Shown here: positions 12,758 through 32,395 of the stretch, in pieces
How the letters are laid out: every line of letters starts with the position of its first letter
How positions within the stretch are numbered: the stretch's first letter is position 1
Origin: Flavipsychrobacter sp.
GTDB lineage: Bacteria > Bacteroidota > Bacteroidia > Chitinophagales > Chitinophagaceae
DNA: 64,000 bases
Assembly (NCBI GenBank): GCA_021155965.1
Contig: JAJNBJ010000004.1
Location: forward strand, 1-64,000
Direction of reading: 5' to 3'
Program-made: the position numbers and the translations under genes
Notes under the pieces: model-generated
Databases searched by the model: none
The model's input: only the letters and a program-made list of their open reading frames with translations
What the model was told of the DNA's origin: nothing

Positions 12758-14014
12758 ATGAATAATCTGCTCGTATGGCAATTGGCATCAAGATACCTGC
12801 GTGGTAAGCGGTCGGCAAACGCTGTGCCTATCCTTTCCCGCATAAGCATGATAGCCATAGCTGTGAGCAGCGCTGCCATGATCATCATTTTTTCGGTATT
12901 CAATGGTTTGGAATCTATTGCCAAACAGGGTTACGTAGCTTTTTACCCCGATATAAAAGTAACCATCGCAAAAGGCAAGTTTTTTCCGGTTGACTCGGAG
13001 AAGATACGGAAGATTGAAATGACACAGCATGTGGACGATATCTCCGCCGTAATTGAGGATTATGCGTTTGCAGTGCATTACAACGAACAAAAGCCTGTGA
13101 TACTGAAAGGTATTGACGACAGGTACATGAGCGTAAATGATGTAAGCCCTTATATAATACAGGGCGACACCTTTGTAATGGCTAGCCAGCCGCAGGGCGA
13201 GACCAATCCCGGCAATCCCAATACGGCCATATTGGGTAGCCGTATCCTGAATGAGTTGGGCACTGACATAAATTCACTCAGTTATTTTACACTTAATGCC
13301 CCCGACGCATCTATCACTGATCCTGGTGCAGATCCATTATCGGCATTACGATCGGTAAAGGTGCGGCCGGCAGGTGTATTCCGCATACAGGACGACTTTG
13401 ACAGCAAATATATATTGGCGCCTTTTGGGCTTGTGCAGGAGCTCTTTAACCAGCCGGGCAAATGCACCTCGATAGAAATAAAAGTAAAAGCGGGAAAAGA
13501 CAAGGAGGTACAGGAAGAACTGAAAAAGTTGTTCGGCGATGGTTACAAAGTGGAGACAAGGTATGAGCAGAACAAGACCATGTATATGGCAATGGGTGCC
13601 GAAAAATGGGTGATGTATGCCATACTGATGATGGTGATGCTCATTGCATCCTTCAACATGATCGGTGCGCTTTCTATGCTGGTGTTGGAGAAACAAAAAG
13701 ACATAGCAATACTCAAAGCAATGGGTGCTTTGCCGGGGGCAATAAAAAGGGTATTCCTGCTGGAGGGTATATTATGGGCACTGATGGGCGGTGTGACCGG
13801 CCTCTCAATAGGGATCATCGTTTGTTTGCTGCAGCAAAAATTTGAGTTGATACAAATGGGCGAATCATTCATTGTGAGTGCTTTCCCCGTAGAGATACAT
13901 GGTGCCGATATTGTGTTGGTATTTGCCACTGTAATGGCTGTGGGGTTACTGATAGCATGGTACCCCGCTATACGCGCAACTAAAGTTGTAGACCCGACGC
14001 TGAAGAGTGCGTAA
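12758..14014 (+). CDS. LolC/LolE-like ABC transporter permease
   Basis: A 418-residue inner-membrane permease of the FtsX/MacB superfamily. There is one N-terminal helix (about residues 22-45), a large periplasmic domain (about 46-270) and three C-terminal helices (about 275-300, 325-350, 370-400) with the family phrase LVLEKQKDIAILKAMGA. By similarity it would act in lipoprotein release from the inner membrane; the matching ATPase (LolD-like) is not in the window. Start codon is preceded by GGGGGT, a weak ribosome site. It follows rbfA and is followed by a tiny membrane protein. Confidence 0.88.
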   Translation: MNNLLVWQLASRYLRGKRSANAVPILSRISMIAIAVSSAAMIIIFSVFNGLESIAKQGYVAFYPDIKVTIAKGKFFPVDSEKIRKIEMTQHVDDISAVIEDYAFAVHYNEQKPVILKGIDDRYMSVNDVSPYIIQGDTFVMASQPQGETNPGNPNTAILGSRILNELGTDINSLSYFTLNAPDASITDPGADPLSALRSVKVRPAGVFRIQDDFDSKYILAPFGLVQELFNQPGKCTSIEIKVKAGKDKEVQEELKKLFGDGYKVETRYEQNKTMYMAMGAEKWVMYAILMMVMLIASFNMIGALSMLVLEKQKDIAILKAMGALPGAIKRVFLLEGILWALMGGVTGLSIGIIVCLLQQKFELIQMGESFIVSAFPVEIHGADIVLVFATVMAVGLLIAWYPAIRATKVVDPTLKSA

Positions 14015-14052
14015 GTAATATGTTTGCTAATTTTAGGTATAACAGTTGCCAC

Positions 14053-14292
14053 ATGGATGACCAGCAGAACAAAAGTAGCGATGAAGAGAGGAGAAAAGAA
14101 AGGGAAGCATTTCTCACACCATCTATAGTGGCTATAGTTGCGATAATAATCCTGGGACTAGCAGCGATATTATACAGAGTCTCTGCTGCAATTGCAAATG
14201 CCACCGCTATCGGCACACCAATAACCGTGTTTGTAACATTGCTTATTGTGATACTTATTGCCATTGTGCTAAAGGCCCGTTCACGTTCATAA
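14053..14292 (+). CDS. Small two-helix membrane protein
   Basis: A 79-residue protein: a charged N-terminus (DDQQNKSSDEERRKEREA) followed by two hydrophobic helices (about residues 20-42 and 50-73) and a basic end. No family recognised. The ATG at 14053 is chosen because the longer frame from 14020 adds codons that overlap no signal and begins only 5 bases after the permease stop. Probably translated from the same transcript as the permease. Confidence 0.55.
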   Translation: MDDQQNKSSDEERRKEREAFLTPSIVAIVAIIILGLAAILYRVSAAIANATAIGTPITVFVTLLIVILIAIVLKARSRS

Positions 14293-14708
14293 AGAGCGGG
14301 TAATAATACGCCGCTAACAAAAATCTGATTATGATTGTGAGGAAGTTGATTAAAATTGATGCCGTATTCCCCCTTGCCGCGTGGGTCGTGTGCAAAAGCG
14401 AAGGGGAGGCAGGGGGATGTTTTACTCGCATTCGGGGTCTCGTGCATGATTTTAGACTTTGAAATTACATGATAAGAAATAGTAGCCCCGGCCTTTACCT
14501 CGCATTGCCTTTTTACACTCTCTCTCCACCAGTCACCCTCTCCACCTGTGGAGAGGGCCGGGGTGAGGTAAATACTCGCGGCCTTTAGGTCGGGGGAAAA
14601 GAAATAAAATGAGCGGCTTTAGCCAAAAAATAATGAGTGTAATTCCGCCTTTGCCGGCCTTATTTTTATAGCAACAAAGCTTCGTGAAGGGCACTCGTGG
14701 CTCGTTAC
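14293..14708. repeat. Intergenic gap made of several repeat modules
   Basis: No coding sequence is evident. Three modules are visible: an inverted repeat of C/G runs (arms near 14351-14363 and 14410-14422); a REP-like palindrome at 14536-14557 (10-base arms CCCTCTCCAC/GTGGAGAGGG) followed by CCGGGGTGAGG, a word seen in many bacterial intergenic repeats; and a GGCTTTAGCCAAAAA word at 14615-14629 that recurs inverted at 28473-28487. The gap separates convergent transcription units. Confidence 0.6.
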
Positions 14709-15776
14709 TTAATTTGCCTCCTGTAACCCAATTTTGCTATTGAATTCTTTTATCATTTCGCCCAATCTGACTTTCCCATATGTTTTTTCAGCATTCTCTA
14801 TAGTCTGGTCTTTTATTATGCTTTTGAACTGCTCTGGTGTGCTTATTGCGTATAAATAAGTAACAAATGCTCCCGCTAGGGGATACAATAAAAGTTCATC
14901 CTGACTTTGATCGTCTTTCCAAACATCGAGTACACTGCGTACTTTCTTTCCATTAATTGCATTTTTTGCCATTTCATACTTATCTCTCCTTGTCTGATCG
15001 AAAGCGACTGCCACACCTTCATTAATAAATCTTGACGTGTTTTTAGGTGCCGTGCTCCAACCCCAATAACTTAATATATGCGTCATTTCATGTCCTATAG
15101 TCTGATTGTAGTGTGCATTGCATGTATATATTGCTGGGGATGCAAAACCAAGGTCTTTACCTAGTACCTTCTTAGCAATCGCATTATCACTCCATACATA
15201 CATGGTCATTTTCTGCGGGAGCATTGTTTGAAAGGCCGTGCTAAGTTTTATATAGGCAAGATCATGTTCCAAGATATATTCGCGGATATCCTGATACCAT
15301 AGTGTAGTGTCTTGAAATTTATAAATGATATTGCGCGATTCTATAGTTATCCATTTTGGTTCTATGGTCGCAGCATCCAATTTTTTCTTCGCATAGCTTA
15401 CAGAATTATCCGTCTTATGTAACGCAATGGCTTTGTTCAATTCGGATAAACCTTGCTCCTTTTTGCCTGTTTTAATATAGGCGTGGCCAAGAAAGGCATG
15501 ACTCCAACCTGAAATACTCGTCGAATCTTTATCTAACAATAATGCCTTTTGTAGATAGGGTATAGCAGAATCATACTTGCCGGTATTTACAAATATTCTC
15601 CCAATAATTTCATTGGCAATTGCGGCCGATTCGGGTACATCCTTCATTTTCACCGCCATTTCGAGTACTTCTGCATATGATTTACTCGCCCAAGCCTCTT
15701 CCAATTCCTCTATAGTTTGACCAAAAACGGAGAATGGAAATATAAGTACCAGTAACAACACGCGCTTCATTTGCAT
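14709..15776 (-). CDS. Secreted TPR protein with gluzincin metallopeptidase domain
   Basis: A 355-residue protein with a signal peptide (ends SVFGQ). Residues about 25-135 hold three TPR-like helical repeats (GKYDSAIPYLQKALLLD, GKKEQGLSELNKAIALH). The C-terminal domain (about 145-345) is a peptidase MA-like gluzincin: HEMTH (His229, Glu230, His233) and the third ligand in FINEG (Glu253, 20 residues after the second His). It probably cleaves or senses peptides in the periplasm; the substrate is unknown. A second ATG two codons downstream is an equally good start. Confidence 0.8.
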   Translation of the reverse strand: MQMKRVLLLVLIFPFSVFGQTIEELEEAWASKSYAEVLEMAVKMKDVPESAAIANEIIGRIFVNTGKYDSAIPYLQKALLLDKDSTSISGWSHAFLGHAYIKTGKKEQGLSELNKAIALHKTDNSVSYAKKKLDAATIEPKWITIESRNIIYKFQDTTLWYQDIREYILEHDLAYIKLSTAFQTMLPQKMTMYVWSDNAIAKKVLGKDLGFASPAIYTCNAHYNQTIGHEMTHILSYWGWSTAPKNTSRFINEGVAVAFDQTRRDKYEMAKNAINGKKVRSVLDVWKDDQSQDELLLYPLAGAFVTYLYAISTPEQFKSIIKDQTIENAEKTYGKVRLGEMIKEFNSKIGLQEAN

Positions 15777-15823
15777 TTTACTAAAATACTCAAAATCGGG
15801 TAGTATCGCACTGGTATAATATA

Positions 15824-16180
15824 TTACCAGCTGGCGGGTACATTTTCCTTAATAATGGCTACAGAGTCGATGATACCTTGGGCATTACTGTAAAAAGTAC
15901 GATAGCAATGTTGCCTGTAGCCATTCGCTATATCTACAGGCATACCTGTTTTTGACATGGTCCGGGTGTGGTATATACGGCTCTTGACTATAGTTGTGTA
16001 GGTAAGCACCTCTCCGCCATGGGCATCTGTGTAAGTATAAGATGGTGTTCCCCATCCTTCCATCACCTCGTCCTTAGTATGGCCGATCCAGGGCTCCAGC
16101 GGCGGCCCGGACTTGTTTTTACTTCCTGCGCAAGCTGCAAAAAGCAATATTGATATTATTAAAATAAGGTAGCGGTTCAT
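15824..16180 (-). CDS. Small lipoprotein with WG.P motif
   Basis: A 118-residue lipoprotein (signal ending LFAAC, Cys17). The mature part begins WIGHTKDEVMEGWGTPSYTY, a pattern like the N-terminal unit of small BamE/SmpA-like or related lipoproteins (conserved G..K.EV...WG.P), and continues with beta strands. Function unknown; the resemblance to BamE-like folds is tentative. Start chosen at the ATG beginning the signal peptide rather than six codons upstream. Confidence 0.65.
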   Translation of the reverse strand: MNRYLILIISILLFAACAGSKNKSGPPLEPWIGHTKDEVMEGWGTPSYTYTDAHGGEVLTYTTIVKSRIYHTRTMSKTGMPVDIANGYRQHCYRTFYSNAQGIIDSVAIIKENVPASW

Positions 16181-16564
16181 GGAATAAATTCTGTGCAAAT
16201 TAATAGATTTTTTCGCCCTTTACAGCTCTGTAGGAGCGAAATACAATAGCCCGGGGTAACGCCCCGGGAAACAAAAATGTAACAAAGGGAATATGTTGTT
16301 GAAATTGAAGTGCACTATAAATGCCCAACTGGCGAGTTTGGCGCGCAGCTTTAGCATAGCCAACTCGTGCATGCCCGATCTCAGCGGTTTCTGTCTCCGC
16401 CGAGTGTCCTTTTTCAGGCACTCGACGGCATCAGGGCACTGTAGCTGAAGACAAGTACTTGGCCAATATAATATGAAAGGCTGATTTTTCAACCCCACGG
16501 AACCAAGCATAAAATATCCACGCTTAAATCCCCTTAAACCCGCGCCAGCAGCAGAAAATAATTT
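16181..16564. repeat. Repeat-rich non-coding island upstream of acs (first part)
   Basis: No convincing gene. It holds a hairpin with 7-base arms CCCGGGG/CCCCGGG (16250-16256 with 16262-16268) preceded by CTCTGTAGGAGCGAAAT, an inverted pair around 16336-16370 (GAGTTTGGC against GCCAACTCG), and a hairpin around 16402-16425 (CGAGTG/CACTCG). Short ORFs on the minus strand here have no family resemblance. Confidence 0.5.
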
Positions 16565-16921
16565 CCTTGACGGTACTGTTTCAGTACCGTCAAGGTACAC
16601 TTTTCAGTACCGTCTTGGTTTTTAAATTTTTTCAGCAAAAAATTCTCACAGAACTTTACATTGTTATAGTTCCTTTTACAGAAAACAGCAACGAAAAAAC
16701 TTTGCCGTGGTCTGCCCGCCTCGGTGGTGGCCTTTGCGGTTAAATAACTTAACGCGGGATTATTAAGCAAATTAGAAATGAAACAACCAAAATAGCAATA
16801 CGATTGCACATTGATAATCAATCACTATCTGCGCAAAAAATGCGCAAATAGTGCGCAAAAATAAATGCAGATACACGTGAAAAACAGTAAATTATACATA
16901 CCAGTGTTGTTACAAAAAAAA
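16565..16921 (-). repeat. Dispersed ~360 bp intergenic repeat, copy A
   Basis: Reads, on the minus strand, as the counterpart of 31932-32295. The best-conserved part is 16729-16921, which aligns by eye at roughly 80-85% with 31932-32128 (opposite strand) and includes repeated TGCGCAAA words, a GATTGATTATCAAT palindrome and a TGTTGTTAC-polyA segment. The far end carries a perfect hairpin with 14-base arms (16565-16578 and 16582-16595) identical to one at 32265-32295, plus an extra half-site at 16605-16618. Copy A ends 53 bases before the acs start. No coding capacity is evident. Confidence 0.75.
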
Positions 16922-16974
16922 TTATGCAAAATGCGCAATAATTTGGAGAGATATTTACCTAAAAAACAAATTCT

Positions 16975-18888
16975 ATGTCATTCGCTTTCCAGGTAAAGAA
17001 TTTTGATGAATACAAGCAGGCTTATGAAAAGAGCGTGGCAGACCCTGAGCAATTCTGGAGCGATGTGGCAGAGGAATTTGTGTGGCGCAGGAAATGGGAC
17101 AGCGTATTGGAATGGAACTTTACACAACCGGATGTAAAATGGTTTATCAATGGCAAGCTGAACATTACTGAGAATTGCCTGGACAGGCACCTCGCAAAGC
17201 ATGGAGAGCAGCCTGCTATTATCTGGGAACCGAACGATCCAAATGAACAGCATAAGGTAATTACCTATAACGAACTGCACTTCAAAGTAAACCAGTTTGC
17301 CAATGTGCTGAAAAATAATGGCGTTAAAAAAGGTGATCGCATATGTATCTATATGGGCATGGTTCCTGAACTGCCCATAGCTATGCTGGCGTGTGCACGT
17401 GTTGGGGCTATACATTCTGTGATATTCGGCGGTTTCAGCGCACAGAGTATTTCCGATCGGCTGAAAGATGCAGGTGCGGAATTTATCATCACCTGCGATG
17501 GCGCTTTCCGCGGAGGAAAGGACATAGCACTCAAAGCTATTATTGACGATGCCCTCGTAGCCTGCGACTTTGTAAAAACCGTTATCGTATATAACCGCAC
17601 AAGCATACCTGTGAGCATGATAAAAGGCAGGGATGTATGGTGGCATGAAGAAATTGAAAAAGTGGAGGCACAGGGCAACCCGGTTGTGCATGCAGAGGAG
17701 ATGGATGCTGAAGACCCTTTGTTCATCCTGTACACTTCTGGTTCTACAGGCAAGCCCAAGGGCGTGGTGCATTCATCGGCAGGGTATATGGTGTATGCCA
17801 CTTATTCTTTTGTAAATGTTTTCCAATACCAGCCGGGCGATATTCATTTCTGCACGGCAGACATTGGCTGGATAACGGGGCATAGTTACATTGTATATAG
17901 TGTGTTATGTGCAGGCGGCACATCGCTGATGTATGAAGGCCTGCCCACATGGCCTGATGCAGGCCGGTTATGGGATATTGTTGACAAGCATAAAGTGAAC
18001 ATCCTGTACACTGCGCCAACTGCCATCCGCAGCCTGATGGCATATGGGCTGAACCCATTGGAAGGAAAAAAACTGGATACGCTTAAGGTATTGGGTACCG
18101 TGGGAGAACCCATAAACGAAGAAGCATGGCACTGGTATGATGAGCATATAGGCAAAAAGCGCTGCCCGGTAGTGGATACCTGGTGGCAGACAGAAACAGG
18201 AGGTATCATGTTGTCGAACCTGGCAGGCGTTACACCGTCTAAGCCAAGTTATGCAACACTGCCTTTACCCGGCATACAACCTATGCTGGTAGATGAACAG
18301 GGAAAAGAAATTATGGGCAATGATGTGAGTGGCAATTTATGCATCCGCTTCCCATGGCCTTCTATCATCCGCACTACTTACGGTGACCATGAGCGGTGCA
18401 GGCTCAATTATTTTGCTGCTTACAGCAATTTGTATTTCACCGGCGATGGATGTTACCGTGATGCACAAGGTAACTACCGCATTACGGGCCGTGTGGACGA
18501 TGTGCTGAACGTAAGCGGCCACCGCATTGGCACCGCAGAAGTGGAGAATGCCATTAATATGCACACCGGCGTGCTGGAAAGTGCCGTAGTTGGCTACCCG
18601 CACGACCTGAAAGGGCAGGGCATATACGCATTTGTGATCATGGAACAATTGCCGGAAGACGCCCAGAATATGCGTGCAGATATTTTACAAACCGTGAACC
18701 GCGTGATAGGCCCCATTGCACGCCCGGATAAGATACAATTCGTGACCGGCCTGCCCAAAACACGCAGCGGCAAAATAATGCGGCGCATATTGCGCAAAAT
18801 AGCAGAAGGCGAAATGAGTGCAATTGGCGATACCACCACATTGCTCGACCCTGCTGTGGTGGAAGATATAAAAAATGGTAGAGTGTAA
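16975..18888 (+). CDS. acs: Acetyl-CoA synthetase
   Basis: A 637-residue AMP-forming ligase (usual length ~640-650) converting acetate, ATP and CoA to acetyl-CoA in the cytoplasm. The adenylation motif YTSGSTGKPKGVVH (about residues 250-265), the TWWQTETGG block, the hinge TGRVDDVLNVSGHRIGTAE and the C-terminal PKTRSGKIMRR with Lys600, the residue reversibly acetylated in the family, are all present. It stands alone behind the repeat island; no acetyltransferase or deacetylase neighbour. No clear TAnnTTTG box was found in the 50 bases before the ATG. Confidence 0.96.
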   Translation: MSFAFQVKNFDEYKQAYEKSVADPEQFWSDVAEEFVWRRKWDSVLEWNFTQPDVKWFINGKLNITENCLDRHLAKHGEQPAIIWEPNDPNEQHKVITYNELHFKVNQFANVLKNNGVKKGDRICIYMGMVPELPIAMLACARVGAIHSVIFGGFSAQSISDRLKDAGAEFIITCDGAFRGGKDIALKAIIDDALVACDFVKTVIVYNRTSIPVSMIKGRDVWWHEEIEKVEAQGNPVVHAEEMDAEDPLFILYTSGSTGKPKGVVHSSAGYMVYATYSFVNVFQYQPGDIHFCTADIGWITGHSYIVYSVLCAGGTSLMYEGLPTWPDAGRLWDIVDKHKVNILYTAPTAIRSLMAYGLNPLEGKKLDTLKVLGTVGEPINEEAWHWYDEHIGKKRCPVVDTWWQTETGGIMLSNLAGVTPSKPSYATLPLPGIQPMLVDEQGKEIMGNDVSGNLCIRFPWPSIIRTTYGDHERCRLNYFAAYSNLYFTGDGCYRDAQGNYRITGRVDDVLNVSGHRIGTAEVENAINMHTGVLESAVVGYPHDLKGQGIYAFVIMEQLPEDAQNMRADILQTVNRVIGPIARPDKIQFVTGLPKTRSGKIMRRILRKIAEGEMSAIGDTTTLLDPAVVEDIKNGRV

Positions 18889-28556: not shown

Positions 28557-31500
28557 TTAAAACGCCCTGTTTATACCCACCACATACCTTGGTGTAAAGT
28601 ATTGATTGTTGCTGTATGGCGGGCGATTGAGGAATGCAGGTACATCAAAACGCAGGGTGAGGGGCTTTGCTTTTTCAAATACTCCCCAGCTTTTTATGGT
28701 GAAGGCAACTCCCAAACCGGCATCAGCATGCAGGTCGCTCCAGTAGTTTGTTGGTGCGATCTTATTGACCCCAAGCATTAAAAGATCCTCACTCATTTCC
28801 ATAACGCCGGCATCGCCAAAAGCATACAGGTTGGCATGCAACCAACGGAAAATGCGCGGATGCCATGGCATATAGTTCTCAAACCCGATCTCCACATTCA
28901 CTGATGCGCCACTGCGTCCCCTGTAACCAATATATTGCCTGCCAGTACGCGTGTCGGGAGCGAAGTAGCCTGAATAGCCCCTCACGTTAAGCCCGCCACC
29001 GTAATGAAAATGGTTGACATCGTACCGTGAAATACCCTGCCATTCATCGGGTACAAAGCCACGGCTGCGGGTATATTTATTCTCCATCAGTTCTTCAGGA
29101 TTGGCGCCTGCCATAAAGAGCGCACTTTCATTCGGTATATTATTACCCATGCCATAACGCCCGAATAAGCGTGTGCGCACCTCGAGTTTACCCAGGTAGT
29201 TGCTGTTAACAGATTCAAGCTGTGCATATGAATAATCGAAACCACCGTTTTTCCCATTCAGGAAAGGAGCACGGAAGCTGAACAGATACCTGCCATTGCC
29301 GTGTATATAATTATAACTATGCCCCCACGAGAAATTCAGGGAAGTGTTGATCATATTCTTTGTACTGCTCCACTCGTTGGGATCAAGCAAATACGGGAAA
29401 GGATTATAGCTGAAAAATGGATTTTTGTAGAAGTAATCGTACTCATTCTGCCACATGCTTTGTGCATATACCTGTATGATATTTTTTTCGTTCATTCGCC
29501 AGTTGAAGCCGCCACGGTGGTACCACAACCCATCCAGGAAGCGGCTGTTTACCTGCAATTGCAGCTTAGGCATATTACGCGTTACAGGAGAAATGTAATT
29601 CAACGAATAATGCACTGCGGGAAAGTAGGCATACATCCCTTCATTTGGCCCGGCACGATATATTTGGTCCTGGAACAGGTGCGTGTTCCACCATACTGTT
29701 GCATCTATCTTATTCAGTATACCGAGGTAATCGCCTTCAAAATGTACGCCTGCTTTTACACCATCAACCGGGTTCCACCAAAGGTCTGGGCGCACATAGA
29801 GGCGGTAGTGCCTGCGGTCTAATGCGGGTGCAAGCCCGCCATCAAATTTCACTTTAATATTCCGGGGATTGAGGCTGAGCCCTTTCTTTTTGTAGTTATC
29901 CACCATAGCTACATCAGCCATGCGGTAACTGGTGTCTATGCGCACACTGCTTATGCCGGATGGTACCTGCACATGTGCGGTGTACCTGCGGTTGAAACCG
30001 CCCCAGCCTGTCCATTTAGGCAGCGTTGTTGCTGTGGTCTGTTTCTCGAACCAGGTATTTGGTATATAGAAATCGTGCTGGCTGCCGTCTTTTGCGGTAA
30101 CGGTAAAATCGAGCGGCATCTGCATATCGCTGCTGCGGTGGAATTTTATGGCGAAGCTATCGGCACCGCGTATTTTCTTTACACCACAAATACCATAATC
30201 CAATGTCTTTGCAGTTTCGAACCACTGATCGAAGAACCATGATAGGTCAACTTTAGTGAAGTTGATGACGGATGCGCGGAAATCCTCGTAATAAGGATGC
30301 GCCATTTTCCATTGCTCAAAGTAATGCTGCATGGCTGCAAGGAACAGGGAATCACCGAGTACATATTGCAGGTTGTAGAGCATAGTAGCAGTCTTGTAAT
30401 ATACCTGTCCATAACCACCACCATGGTTTAGTGCATTGTGAAAATCATCGGAGTGCGTGTTTAATGTGCTCTCCATACCACCAAGCGCTTCTATGGTGTA
30501 GCGGTTAAGTACACGGAGGTCAATAGCCCTTGTAGGCTCTGTGAACTTCTGCCTGTATTTGGACTTTGGTTTTCCTTCCACCATATTCTCACCATCAATG
30601 CGGTTGAGGCCCCATGCAGTGAGGAATTGTGTAAACCCCTCATCGAGTGCAGCGCGGTAGGTTTCGTTGCTGCCCACCTGGCCATAGAACCAGTTGTGGC
30701 CTATCTCATGCACCAGCAGACCACGGTAGCCAGGGTCAGCACCACCATCCAGCGTGAGCATCGGGTATTCCATACCATCAGCAGCATCGGCAGCTACTAT
30801 TTTAGGATAGCAGTACATGCCTATGTCTTCAGAGAAAACCTTAATGATCTTAGTGATGTAGTCCGGGGCATTCTGCCAGCCGGCGGCGTGTGGCTCCTGT
30901 ACTATTGCCACACACTCAACACCGTTCCAGTAAGCAGTGCCAATGCGATAAGAAGGATCTGCAGTGAAGGCGAAGTCGTGCACATTGTTACCAACAAAAC
31001 GCCATTGCTTGCGCTTGCCTTTTTCGTAAGGTATGATTTCTGACGGCGGCTCGTTCCATTTTTTTGTGGCAAAGTTTTTGATATCCAGTTTATCGCGCAG
31101 GTCTTTGGGCAATACCTCGTTCCTGTTTTTTAATTCGCCGGTTGCTTCCAGAATATAATTGGAAGGGAAGTCGAGTGTGACATCGAATATGCCATAATCG
31201 CCATAGAACTCACGGTTCAGGTGCTGGTAAGTGTCCCAGCCGTGCATGCGGTCGTACACACATATTTTAGGGAACCACTGGCAGCCGTTATAATGCTTAA
31301 AGCCCCATGCATCATACATCTTCATACGGCGGCGTGTGGCACCATTGTCGTACCATGTGCTGAAGTTCATGGTAATGGTTACTTTGCTGCCGGGGTATAA
31401 GGGTTTGGGCAGGTACACTTTTAATATGGTGTTATCCAGTTCTGTTCTTGCTGCGGCACCATCCACTTTAATATTTTCGGTAGTTGTGCCCAGGCCTGCG

Positions 31501-31835
31501 GCTTCCCTTTTGCCCAGGCGTGGGCGTGTTTTATTCTCCAGCTCCAACTGGTGCAGGTAAGAGTTTTTTACAAAAGCATTCTGGAAGAGGTGGAAGTAAA
31601 CATAAGTAAGTGTATCCGGGGAGTTGTTCCAATAGGTGAGCTCTTCGGTAGCTTCTATGTGGTGGTCGTCCTCGTGCATCACGGCATTTATTTTGTACTG
31701 CACATCCTGCTGCCAGTAGGCGGCATCGGGGCGGCGGTTCTTCCAGTAGTGTTTATTGCCGGTGCTGCGGTATTCGTTATCCTGTGCAAATGAGGAAATA
31801 GTTGTAAGGGTAAGTAACAAAATAGCTAAACGCAT
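28557..31835 (-). CDS. M1-family metallopeptidase fused to an Omp85-like beta-barrel
   Basis: A 1,092-residue exported protein (signal peptide ends SSFAQ). Residues about 40-620 are an M1 aminopeptidase-like module: GMEYPMLT in place of the usual GxMEN motif, then HEIGHNW (His376, Glu377, His380) with the third ligand Glu399 exactly 18 residues later. Residues about 700-1092 read as amphipathic strands with aromatic girdles, contain NVRGYSGYF (Val951-Tyr954) like the VRGF/Y motif of Omp85 barrels, and end in a terminal Phe. So the peptidase is probably tethered to the outer membrane by its own barrel. The ORF extends 47 codons upstream, but that part is in a repeat-derived leader and the signal-peptide methionine is preferred. 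Confidence 0.82.
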   Translation of the reverse strand: MRLAILLLTLTTISSFAQDNEYRSTGNKHYWKNRRPDAAYWQQDVQYKINAVMHEDDHHIEATEELTYWNNSPDTLTYVYFHLFQNAFVKNSYLHQLELENKTRPRLGKREAAGLGTTTENIKVDGAAARTELDNTILKVYLPKPLYPGSKVTITMNFSTWYDNGATRRRMKMYDAWGFKHYNGCQWFPKICVYDRMHGWDTYQHLNREFYGDYGIFDVTLDFPSNYILEATGELKNRNEVLPKDLRDKLDIKNFATKKWNEPPSEIIPYEKGKRKQWRFVGNNVHDFAFTADPSYRIGTAYWNGVECVAIVQEPHAAGWQNAPDYITKIIKVFSEDIGMYCYPKIVAADAADGMEYPMLTLDGGADPGYRGLLVHEIGHNWFYGQVGSNETYRAALDEGFTQFLTAWGLNRIDGENMVEGKPKSKYRQKFTEPTRAIDLRVLNRYTIEALGGMESTLNTHSDDFHNALNHGGGYGQVYYKTATMLYNLQYVLGDSLFLAAMQHYFEQWKMAHPYYEDFRASVINFTKVDLSWFFDQWFETAKTLDYGICGVKKIRGADSFAIKFHRSSDMQMPLDFTVTAKDGSQHDFYIPNTWFEKQTTATTLPKWTGWGGFNRRYTAHVQVPSGISSVRIDTSYRMADVAMVDNYKKKGLSLNPRNIKVKFDGGLAPALDRRHYRLYVRPDLWWNPVDGVKAGVHFEGDYLGILNKIDATVWWNTHLFQDQIYRAGPNEGMYAYFPAVHYSLNYISPVTRNMPKLQLQVNSRFLDGLWYHRGGFNWRMNEKNIIQVYAQSMWQNEYDYFYKNPFFSYNPFPYLLDPNEWSSTKNMINTSLNFSWGHSYNYIHGNGRYLFSFRAPFLNGKNGGFDYSYAQLESVNSNYLGKLEVRTRLFGRYGMGNNIPNESALFMAGANPEELMENKYTRSRGFVPDEWQGISRYDVNHFHYGGGLNVRGYSGYFAPDTRTGRQYIGYRGRSGASVNVEIGFENYMPWHPRIFRWLHANLYAFGDAGVMEMSEDLLMLGVNKIAPTNYWSDLHADAGLGVAFTIKSWGVFEKAKPLTLRFDVPAFLNRPPYSNNQYFTPRYVVGINRAF

Positions 31836-32395
31836 AAATGGGATTTGTGGTAAAAATATAGTTTTAGGTGCAATCGGTTGTACCCCTGTTTCTAACACCT
31901 TGCGCCCTCCTTTTAGCGGTTCGGCGTGCACTTTTTTTTGTAACAACAGATATATGTATAACGCATTGATTTTCATTATTTATTTATATTTATTTTTGCA
32001 CACTATTTGCGCATTTTTTGCGCATTTAGTGATTGATTATCAATGTGCAGTCATTTTGCTCATTTTGGGTTGTTTCACTCCTAATTATTTAATAAATCCC
32101 GTGTTAAGTTACATAACCGCAAAGGCCCCAAAGAACGCAAAGAAATCCGCAAAGATCTTATTTACTACTCTCGAAAACGGGCTTTAACCCTCCTTCGCAG
32201 AAATAGCTCCGGCGGGCAAGTATACAAAGTTCTGCAAGGTTTTTGGGGTGGAGAAATTTAATTTCCTTGACGGTACTGTTTCAGTACCGTCAAGGTTTTT
32301 GCCCTCAATATAGGCAAGGGTTTGAGCTGTTTTTTGATTTTTTTTTCTGAACCTCAGATCAGCAGAGATTAATCAAGATTAACCGGAATGATTGG
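31836..32395. other. Long intergenic region holding repeat copy B
   Basis: 560 bases between the M1 gene and a convergently placed upstream neighbour. Apart from the repeat copy (31932-32295) it contains an ~100-base leader next to the M1 start and ~100 A/T-rich bases before the T9SS cargo stop. No coding sequence was found. Confidence 0.6.
31932..32295 (+). repeat. Dispersed ~360 bp intergenic repeat, copy B
   Basis: Counterpart of 16565-16921 on the opposite strand. 31932-32128 is the well-conserved part; 32129-32264 is diverged but keeps short shared words (AAAGTTCTG, AAATTTA) and carries several CGCAAAG units; 32265-32295 is the hairpin identical to copy A, including its TTT loop. Relative to the downstream gene (M1 peptidase on the minus strand) it has the same orientation as copy A has to acs, ending 96 bases from the start codon. 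Confidence 0.75.

Follow-up and report, generated by a model that had tools for sequence, protein, structure and literature searches.

A family of short two-module repeats in a Flavipsychrobacter genome, some with terminase small subunit-like genes, as candidate packaging hitchhikers

On sequence comparison, the two related repeats found in the window (the whole 64,000-nucleotide stretch of Flavipsychrobacter sp. DNA analysed here), copies A and B, are two members of a multi-copy family built from two modules in a fixed order, a left module, L, followed by a right module, R. We regard it as an evenly balanced proposition that both copies are gene-less members of a short, directional and selfish family of the form L-(terS)-R, where terS is the gene for a phage terminase small subunit (TerS), and that this family hitchhikes on phage-like packaging. 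Numbered labels such as L072 denote loci, while a bare L denotes the left module.

Self-BLAST of the window bore out the resemblance described in an earlier note: positions 16729-16921 match 32127-31932 of the other strand, with 83.2% identity across 197 alignment columns (E 7e-50), and the 31-base palindrome at 16565-16595 is identical to that at 32265-32295, within a 38-base identical block (E 5e-14). The distances to the following start codons were likewise reproduced, with 53 bases between the end of the A-run (16921) and the ATG at 16975 for copy A, and 96 bases between 31932 and the in-frame ATG at 31835 of the gene 28557-31976 for copy B. The note had allowed that the pair might be alone or their likeness due to chance A/T richness; what was found is many copies, far above chance, and a check run of copy A against the genome by BLAST gave at least 86 matches at E ≤ 1 with 40 of the 122 candidates scored. 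Copy A reads in the order left motif, operator, promoter-like box, spacer and R1, with its operator half-site offset by 23 bp where most copies have 22 bp; copy B has no clear terminal iteron (Table 1).

Table 1. Features of copies A and B in the window, and gene-bearing elements elsewhere in the same genome.
Feature	Position or locus	Strand	Remarks
Copy A, whole L-R1 element	~16526-16938	+	L match 16493-16723, R1 match 16698-16958; ends approximate
Copy A, left motif AAATCC..AAACCCGCGCC	16526-16546	+	
Copy A, tandem operator	16565-16618	+	full palindrome 16565-16595 and half-site from 16605
Copy A, promoter-like -7 box of L, GAACTTTAC	16651-16659	+	resembles TAnnTTTG
Copy A, ATTGATAATCAAT palindrome opening R1	16810-16822	+	
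Copy A, three TGCGCAA iterons	16830-16858	+	at 16830, 16841, 16852; 11-bp step
Copy A, terminal TGCGCAA	16932-16938	+	right end
Copy B, whole L-R1 element	~31920-32335	-	R1 match 32157-31902, L match 32353-32179; ends approximate
Copy B, operator palindrome	32265-32295	-	same sequence as copy A
Copy B, promoter-like -7 box GAACTTTG	32225-32232	-	
Copy B, ATTGATTATCAAT palindrome opening R1	32032-32044	-	
Copy B, iterons	31996-32024	-	plus-strand reading TTGCACA, TTGCGCA, TTGCGCA; 11-bp step
Gene-bearing elements with R1	L067, L070		proteins of 218 and 167 aa
Gene-bearing elements with R2	L072, L078, L125		proteins of 171, 171 and 166 aa

Copy A directly precedes acs. In seven of 15 congeners, 111-210 bp separate the end of an FtsX-like gene from the acs match; in the window (14014-16975) the distance between the pair is 2960 bp and takes in two predicted genes as well as copy A. 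This comparison of gene order shows a gain of DNA at the locus, not a clean L-R insertion. The sole Rfam match in the window, an Acido-Lenti-1 RNA (RF01687; 38.4 bits, gathering threshold 37), lies about 260 bp before copy A, at 16224-16268 on the minus strand.

In the window's own genome (G000, 4.25 Mb) the palindrome pattern has 62 forward matches at three or fewer mismatches, against none for the reversed control, and copies of the family lie at many unrelated places, irregularly spaced and in both orientations as judged by eye rather than by a statistic. Profile searches of the fetched G000 loci gave 82 L rows and 49 rows of the R1 form; these and the R2 rows were drawn from loci picked by earlier matches and not from an unbiased scan. 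An L lies upstream on the same strand in 40 of the 49 R1 rows and 29 of the 32 R2 rows, and on the opposite strand in 0 of 49 and 1 of 32, respectively, while nearest-pair counting joins 39 of the 49 R1 rows to an L. From the side of L, 38 rows pair with R1, 27 with R2, two with both and 15 with neither; ten of these unpaired rows are less than 600 bp from a contig end, one belongs to the phage-derived cluster on contig C41, and four are other cases. One element contributed two R1 rows (C1:45316 and 45350) and another two L rows (C14:28962 and 29400).

Element length could be taken for 34 of the 82 L, because both ends had to be located by motif, and has a median of about 400 bp with R1 (n = 14) and 450 bp with R2 (n = 20), with a range of 313-1019 bp. 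Elements are longer than the ~360 bp first proposed, and their length is kept only roughly. The next gene after the 40 L rows with R1 runs in the same direction in 26, in the opposite direction in 13 and is uncalled in one, by a home-made gene finder, with one element counted twice and at least one doubtful call (L059 has a same-strand frame 9 bp away). The conserved orientation towards the downstream gene claimed earlier is therefore a bias but not a rule.

Module anatomy was established from an alignment of the first 31 R and 32 L copies, from profile searches and from an analysis of the element ends. L consists of a left motif like AAATCCnCCCAAACCCGCnCCCACAGC, a palindrome that is often repeated at 22 bp, and then the GAACTTTAC box, which appears promoter-like and resembles the Bacteroidota -7 consensus TAnnTTTG quoted in PMC9723704. 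R1 opens with ATTGATAATCAAT and continues with three TGCGCAA in an 11-bp step; its last iteron, TGnGCA, stands 71-92 bp past the third (22 elements with the last one). R2 is built of three GGTATAATTATACC spaced 21 bp, two TATACCC spaced 10 bp and, some 94 bp further on, a final ATTATACC. Past the last iteron, conservation drops toward background; as the elements in this analysis had been chosen by that iteron, the fall alone is informative. R was found by DNA only in G000 and G010, with one weak match in G027, among 40 relatives (at most 17 best candidates scored per genome). A scan for the R1 core in a contig collection that leaves out the window's own or very near genomes placed 22 of 24 loci in one MAG, Loclat_bin-10221, and the other two were taken as chance.

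Other repeats accompany the family. By eye, the L-R spacers of many G000 copies hold further dispersed repeats, TTTGCG..TGCGG..TTTGCGGTTAA and CCCGCCGGAGCTATTACTGCGAAGGAGGGGTTATAGCC. In one region of G010 (L089, L092 and L093), R-like units recur in tandem at 191-bp intervals with another palindrome, GGTGTGGCACAC..GTGTGCCACACC, between them. A multi-copy IS with the left end TGTCTAGTCCTGAAAAAACC has 13 left ends in G000 (at contig ends, loci L137-L149). Read by eye, ten of these are preceded by an L in the same orientation, four of the ten coming straight after GGTATAA-type iterons, and the remaining three follow sequences that resemble a sigma-54 promoter. This IS was considered as the mover of the elements and set aside: it interrupts elements, and is therefore taken as a later insertion.

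Five G000 loci have a gene between L and the iterons. All three of the five element proteins that were scanned have matches to phrog_4151 that cover the greater part of that family (E 2e-22 to 7e-14) and score above the cut-off of Pfam Terminase_5 (gpP-like HTH), two of them also above that of one further HTH family; no NCBIfam model reaches its cut-off in these three proteins. The L072 protein has 37 matches in 50,697 phage records (Bacteroides, Porphyromonas, Elizabethkingia and unnamed phages), and among the matches listed 3 of 12 are annotated 'terminase SSU'. Since phrog_4151 is common to the solitary proteins and to a protein encoded next to a terminase large subunit (TerL), the element-borne proteins are, on this profile evidence, homologous to phage TerS. 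Five G000 elements combine terS with iterons, and R is a candidate pac site. Of 198 genomes of the order, 12 (counting G000) have a match to the TerS family, as do 24 of 24 congeners. The likeness between the gene-bearing copies L072 and L078 extends past the left motif, so an element can carry flanking DNA along. At L088 of G010 an R copy comes after a terS-like promoter and a frame of very small size, by eye an internal deletion of a terS element. In the TerS-like proteins of L234 and L254, also in G010, there are long variable C-terminal extensions, and here iteron DNA seems to be coding (QVRKNCAKSK).

The type of TerS and the type of iteron go together. In a table of 56 locus rows, with two genes present twice and helix types grouped by eye, 12 of the 23 solitary proteins with an (S/P)R(R/S/T) recognition helix have at least two downstream TGCGCAA and none has four or more TATACC, while five of the six solitary proteins with an SQ(K/R)T helix have at least four TATACC and none has two or more TGCGCAA. 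Other helix types (27 rows) have at least two TGCGCAA in three rows and at least four TATACC in none. On these counts the association of one TerS type with R1, and of another with R2, holds in several species. Iterons are not demonstrable behind every terS: 11 of the 23 (S/P)R-type proteins have fewer than two downstream TGCGCAA, and a de novo repeat test (55 rows, one dropped for length) found 7-mer clusters at p ≤ 0.05 behind 14 of 42 solitary terS genes, some of these clusters not being iterons, and behind 0 of 13 cluster or phage terS genes.

A sixth member of the TerS family lies directly before the TerL gene in G000 (C41:87087; phrog_4151, E 7e-24). The cluster around it spans about 20 kb, and the six of its proteins that were searched include matches for portal, head, baseplate and tape measure. 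Two divergent operons in it flank an L-type palindrome. Neither an integrase nor a replication gene was seen in the part of its proteins searched, and its own TerS gene has no visible iteron site behind it. The C41 TerL has 59 matches in the phage collection and, at full length, is 61% to that of L281, a fuller phage-like cluster in G009, versus 45-49% to others; from this nearness the G000 cluster may be a prophage remnant; alternatively, it may be gene-transfer-agent-like.

Similar palindromes connect such clusters with the solitary genes. Best local scores between the upstream regions of terS-terL and solitary terS in the same genome are 106 in G000, 70 in G176, 56 in G017, and 38 in both G010 and G009, whereas in G016 and G004, with two solitary terS genes each, they are 26 and 23, and operators are not shared. 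The control, 200 shuffled single pairs with a mean of 18.7 and a maximum of 28, is not like for like, as it sets single pairs against the best of 2-8 real scores. The palindromes before solitary terS match those of the cluster terS-terL in five of the seven genomes tested. In these five the palindromes differ between species, with some types common to G017-G007, G016-G010/G009 and G012-G007, and some cross-genome scores (G017-G007 62, G016-G009 38, G016-G010 37, G012-G007 37) reach same-genome scores. By eye, a left motif like AAACCCGCnCCCACAGC precedes solitary terS genes in G000, G010, G009 and G007. The sequence TATCCACA, which we take to resemble a DnaA box, recurs before two cluster terS and several solitary terS genes (L272, L277, L244, L252, L256, L303-L307, L314 and L315; by eye).

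The packaging genes also have a recurrent setting. In G009 and G010, terS-terL-portal lies between the same non-phage-looking neighbours on both sides, the stretches compared containing this packaging half and no head or tail genes; G012 and G017 have one neighbour of the packaging genes in common, and G004 and G016 share one arrangement of the packaging and head/tail halves. Clusters of terS-terL-portal were noted at L272, L274, L275, L276, L277, L278 and L282. It is possible that these phage-derived Bacteroidota clusters are gene transfer agents. Among the titles listed in literature searches, none was dedicated to gene transfer agents in Bacteroidota and none described an L-(terS)-R arrangement; lateral transduction in Bacteroides is reported in a gut study (PMC12946183).

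What the genomes display is an ordered L-R family with gene-bearing versions, a homology of the encoded proteins to phage TerS, a pairing of TerS type with iteron type and palindromes shared with terS-terL in five genomes; from these we infer co-induction, binding of R by TerS, and packaging. L would be a palindromic operator and promoter of the same kind as that before the terminase genes of the phage-derived cluster, and when the cluster is switched on, the L promoters would fire too. The few full-length elements would then make a small TerS-like DNA-binding protein whose target would be R, the array of iterons that closes the same element on its 3' side. R would serve as a pac-like site at which bound TerS recruits the large terminase of the cluster, and DNA starting at an element would be loaded into particles. 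Gene-less copies such as A and B, which carry L and R only, would use TerS in trans. This is the simplest reading that uses all the parts. Against it stand the cluster TerS without a visible iteron site, the solitary terS genes without iterons, the operators that are unshared in G016 and G004, the 11 (S/P)R-type proteins with fewer than two TGCGCAA, the cross-genome operator scores that equal same-genome ones, 34 elements in which no target-site duplication was found, the possibility that the G000 cluster is a prophage remnant, and R DNA in few relatives. More tentatively, a Bacteroidota lineage could possess a particle resembling a gene transfer agent, with the starting points of packaging dictated by dozens of scattered pac sites that each bring a promoter, and by several TerS variants differing in specificity, each of which would multiply as a miniature selfish element of its own, in all a set of packaging parasites spread over the genome; this further step is possible, if doubtful.

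Other readings account for some of these parts. Copies A and B have perfect 14-bp arms, and a T-run follows the palindrome in some copies, as might be expected of a structured RNA element or a terminator hairpin. Across 74 L copies, anchored on the left-arm core, the palindrome core is nearly invariant. Complementarity holds for 859 of the 1036 arm cells, and at the variable positions 3, 5 and 13 most substitutions break pairing. Successive GGTAC sites in these copies are spaced 22 bp apart in 31 of 37 cases, a step that we read as a protein-on-DNA pattern, the palindrome sits upstream of the promoter-like box of its element, and Rfam searches of the window (gathering threshold) and of six loci (E ≤ 0.5) detected no family in L or R. 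Because most of the arm changes are non-compensatory, the palindrome lies upstream of the box and Rfam gives no match, we favour a DNA site over an RNA hairpin for the palindrome; the RNA element that had been suggested for these repeats is not borne out, and we judge it very improbable. A portable promoter retained for regulating neighbouring host genes, such as acs after copy A, is somewhat less remote though still improbable. The palindromic operator and promoter-like box of L would suit it, as would the same-direction majority of next genes (26 of 40) and the place of copy A before acs, whose upstream gap is short in several congeners; R, however, would be superfluous for a promoter, and the strict form of this reading was set aside because the next gene faces the other way in 13 of the 40 rows. 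Of the portable regulatory element proposed earlier, the part that stands is the likeness of L to the operator-promoter common to terS genes.

A stronger rival, which we nonetheless think unlikely, is a MITE-like family moved by a transposase (for example a Mu-like one), with the TerS-like protein a mere regulator and packaging irrelevant. The many dispersed gene-less copies with conserved modules, the AAACCCGCnCCCACAGC-like left motif before solitary terS in four genomes and the abrupt right end are all consistent with it. So are the nearest phage matches of TerS and TerL, which include records named Bacteroides phage p00, which we take to be Hankyphage. A Mu-like transposase is reported for Hankyphage (PMC6199706). 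By contrast, L and R have no terminal inverted repeats, the left motif of L and the terminal iteron of R being unrelated by inspection, and no target-site duplication was found in 34 elements, in which 3- to 6-mers showed no excess over 12 shuffled pairings at boundaries uncertain by a few bases. Six loci read through have no transposase gene, and no integrase, between L and R; the Y1 transposase family PF01797 has three partial matches in G000, one of them on contig C34 about 280 bp from an L, and none in G010. A transposase would also leave the terS gene, and its operator in common with terS-terL, unexplained. The earlier proposal of a non-autonomous mobile element survives in outline, with transposition as no more than a candidate mode of spread, through the dispersed ordered copies with neighbours in either direction, the abrupt right end and the gene-bearing versions. 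It is also conceivable, but decidedly improbable, that dispersed R are domesticated packaging-start sites, kept by the cell itself to steer a gene-transfer agent towards loading particular parts of the chromosome. The common host locus of the packaging genes in two congeners and the dozens of dispersed R sites with matching TerS proteins would agree with this; the irregular placing of the copies in both orientations does not, and R DNA in few species fits selfish turnover rather than domesticated sites.

Several known systems resemble the packaging hitchhiker in part. Phage-inducible chromosomal islands (PICIs) typically occur in few copies per genome, unlike the present units of ~0.4-1 kb, which number tens of copies per genome and lie at many unrelated places rather than at a specific attachment site. 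PICIs (SaPI and others) are a precedent in that they may carry a terS homologue and a cognate pac/cos site and undergo phage induction, traits that the present family would share on our reading, and they differ in having integrase, replication and interference genes (PMC6092414); none of these was present in the six loci read. The C41 cluster recalls the gene transfer agent RcGTA (PMC7947584) in being phage-derived, with no integrase or replication gene seen among the proteins searched, and the clusters of G009 and G010 may do so in having terS, terL and portal at one host locus. RcGTA TerS is reported there to bind DNA without specificity and packaging to have no discrete starts; TerS variants with specific sites would therefore be unusual next to a cluster of this kind, and here, unlike in RcGTA, several TerS paralogues go with distinct iteron types. 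MITEs are short gene-less derivatives of longer gene-bearing elements, which the present family resembles, but it is without their terminal inverted repeats, a detected target-site duplication or a known transposase. REP/REPIN sequences with RAYT, the subject of PMC3733652, PMC3116915 and PMC8266576, are likewise short, palindromic, high-copy and probably non-autonomous repeats with a companion gene; here that gene encodes a TerS-like HTH protein in place of a Y1 transposase, and the element is an asymmetric L...R with an iteron end.

If the packaging hitchhiker is real, high-copy intergenic repeats that are usually filed as MITEs or REPs would include packaging parasites consisting of a promoter and a packaging site, and the finding would point to gene-transfer-agent-like clusters in Bacteroidota. 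The determinants of GTA packaging start points would then be directly testable by sequencing of particle DNA, and the paired TerS types and sites would offer a natural set in which to follow the evolution of packaging specificity.
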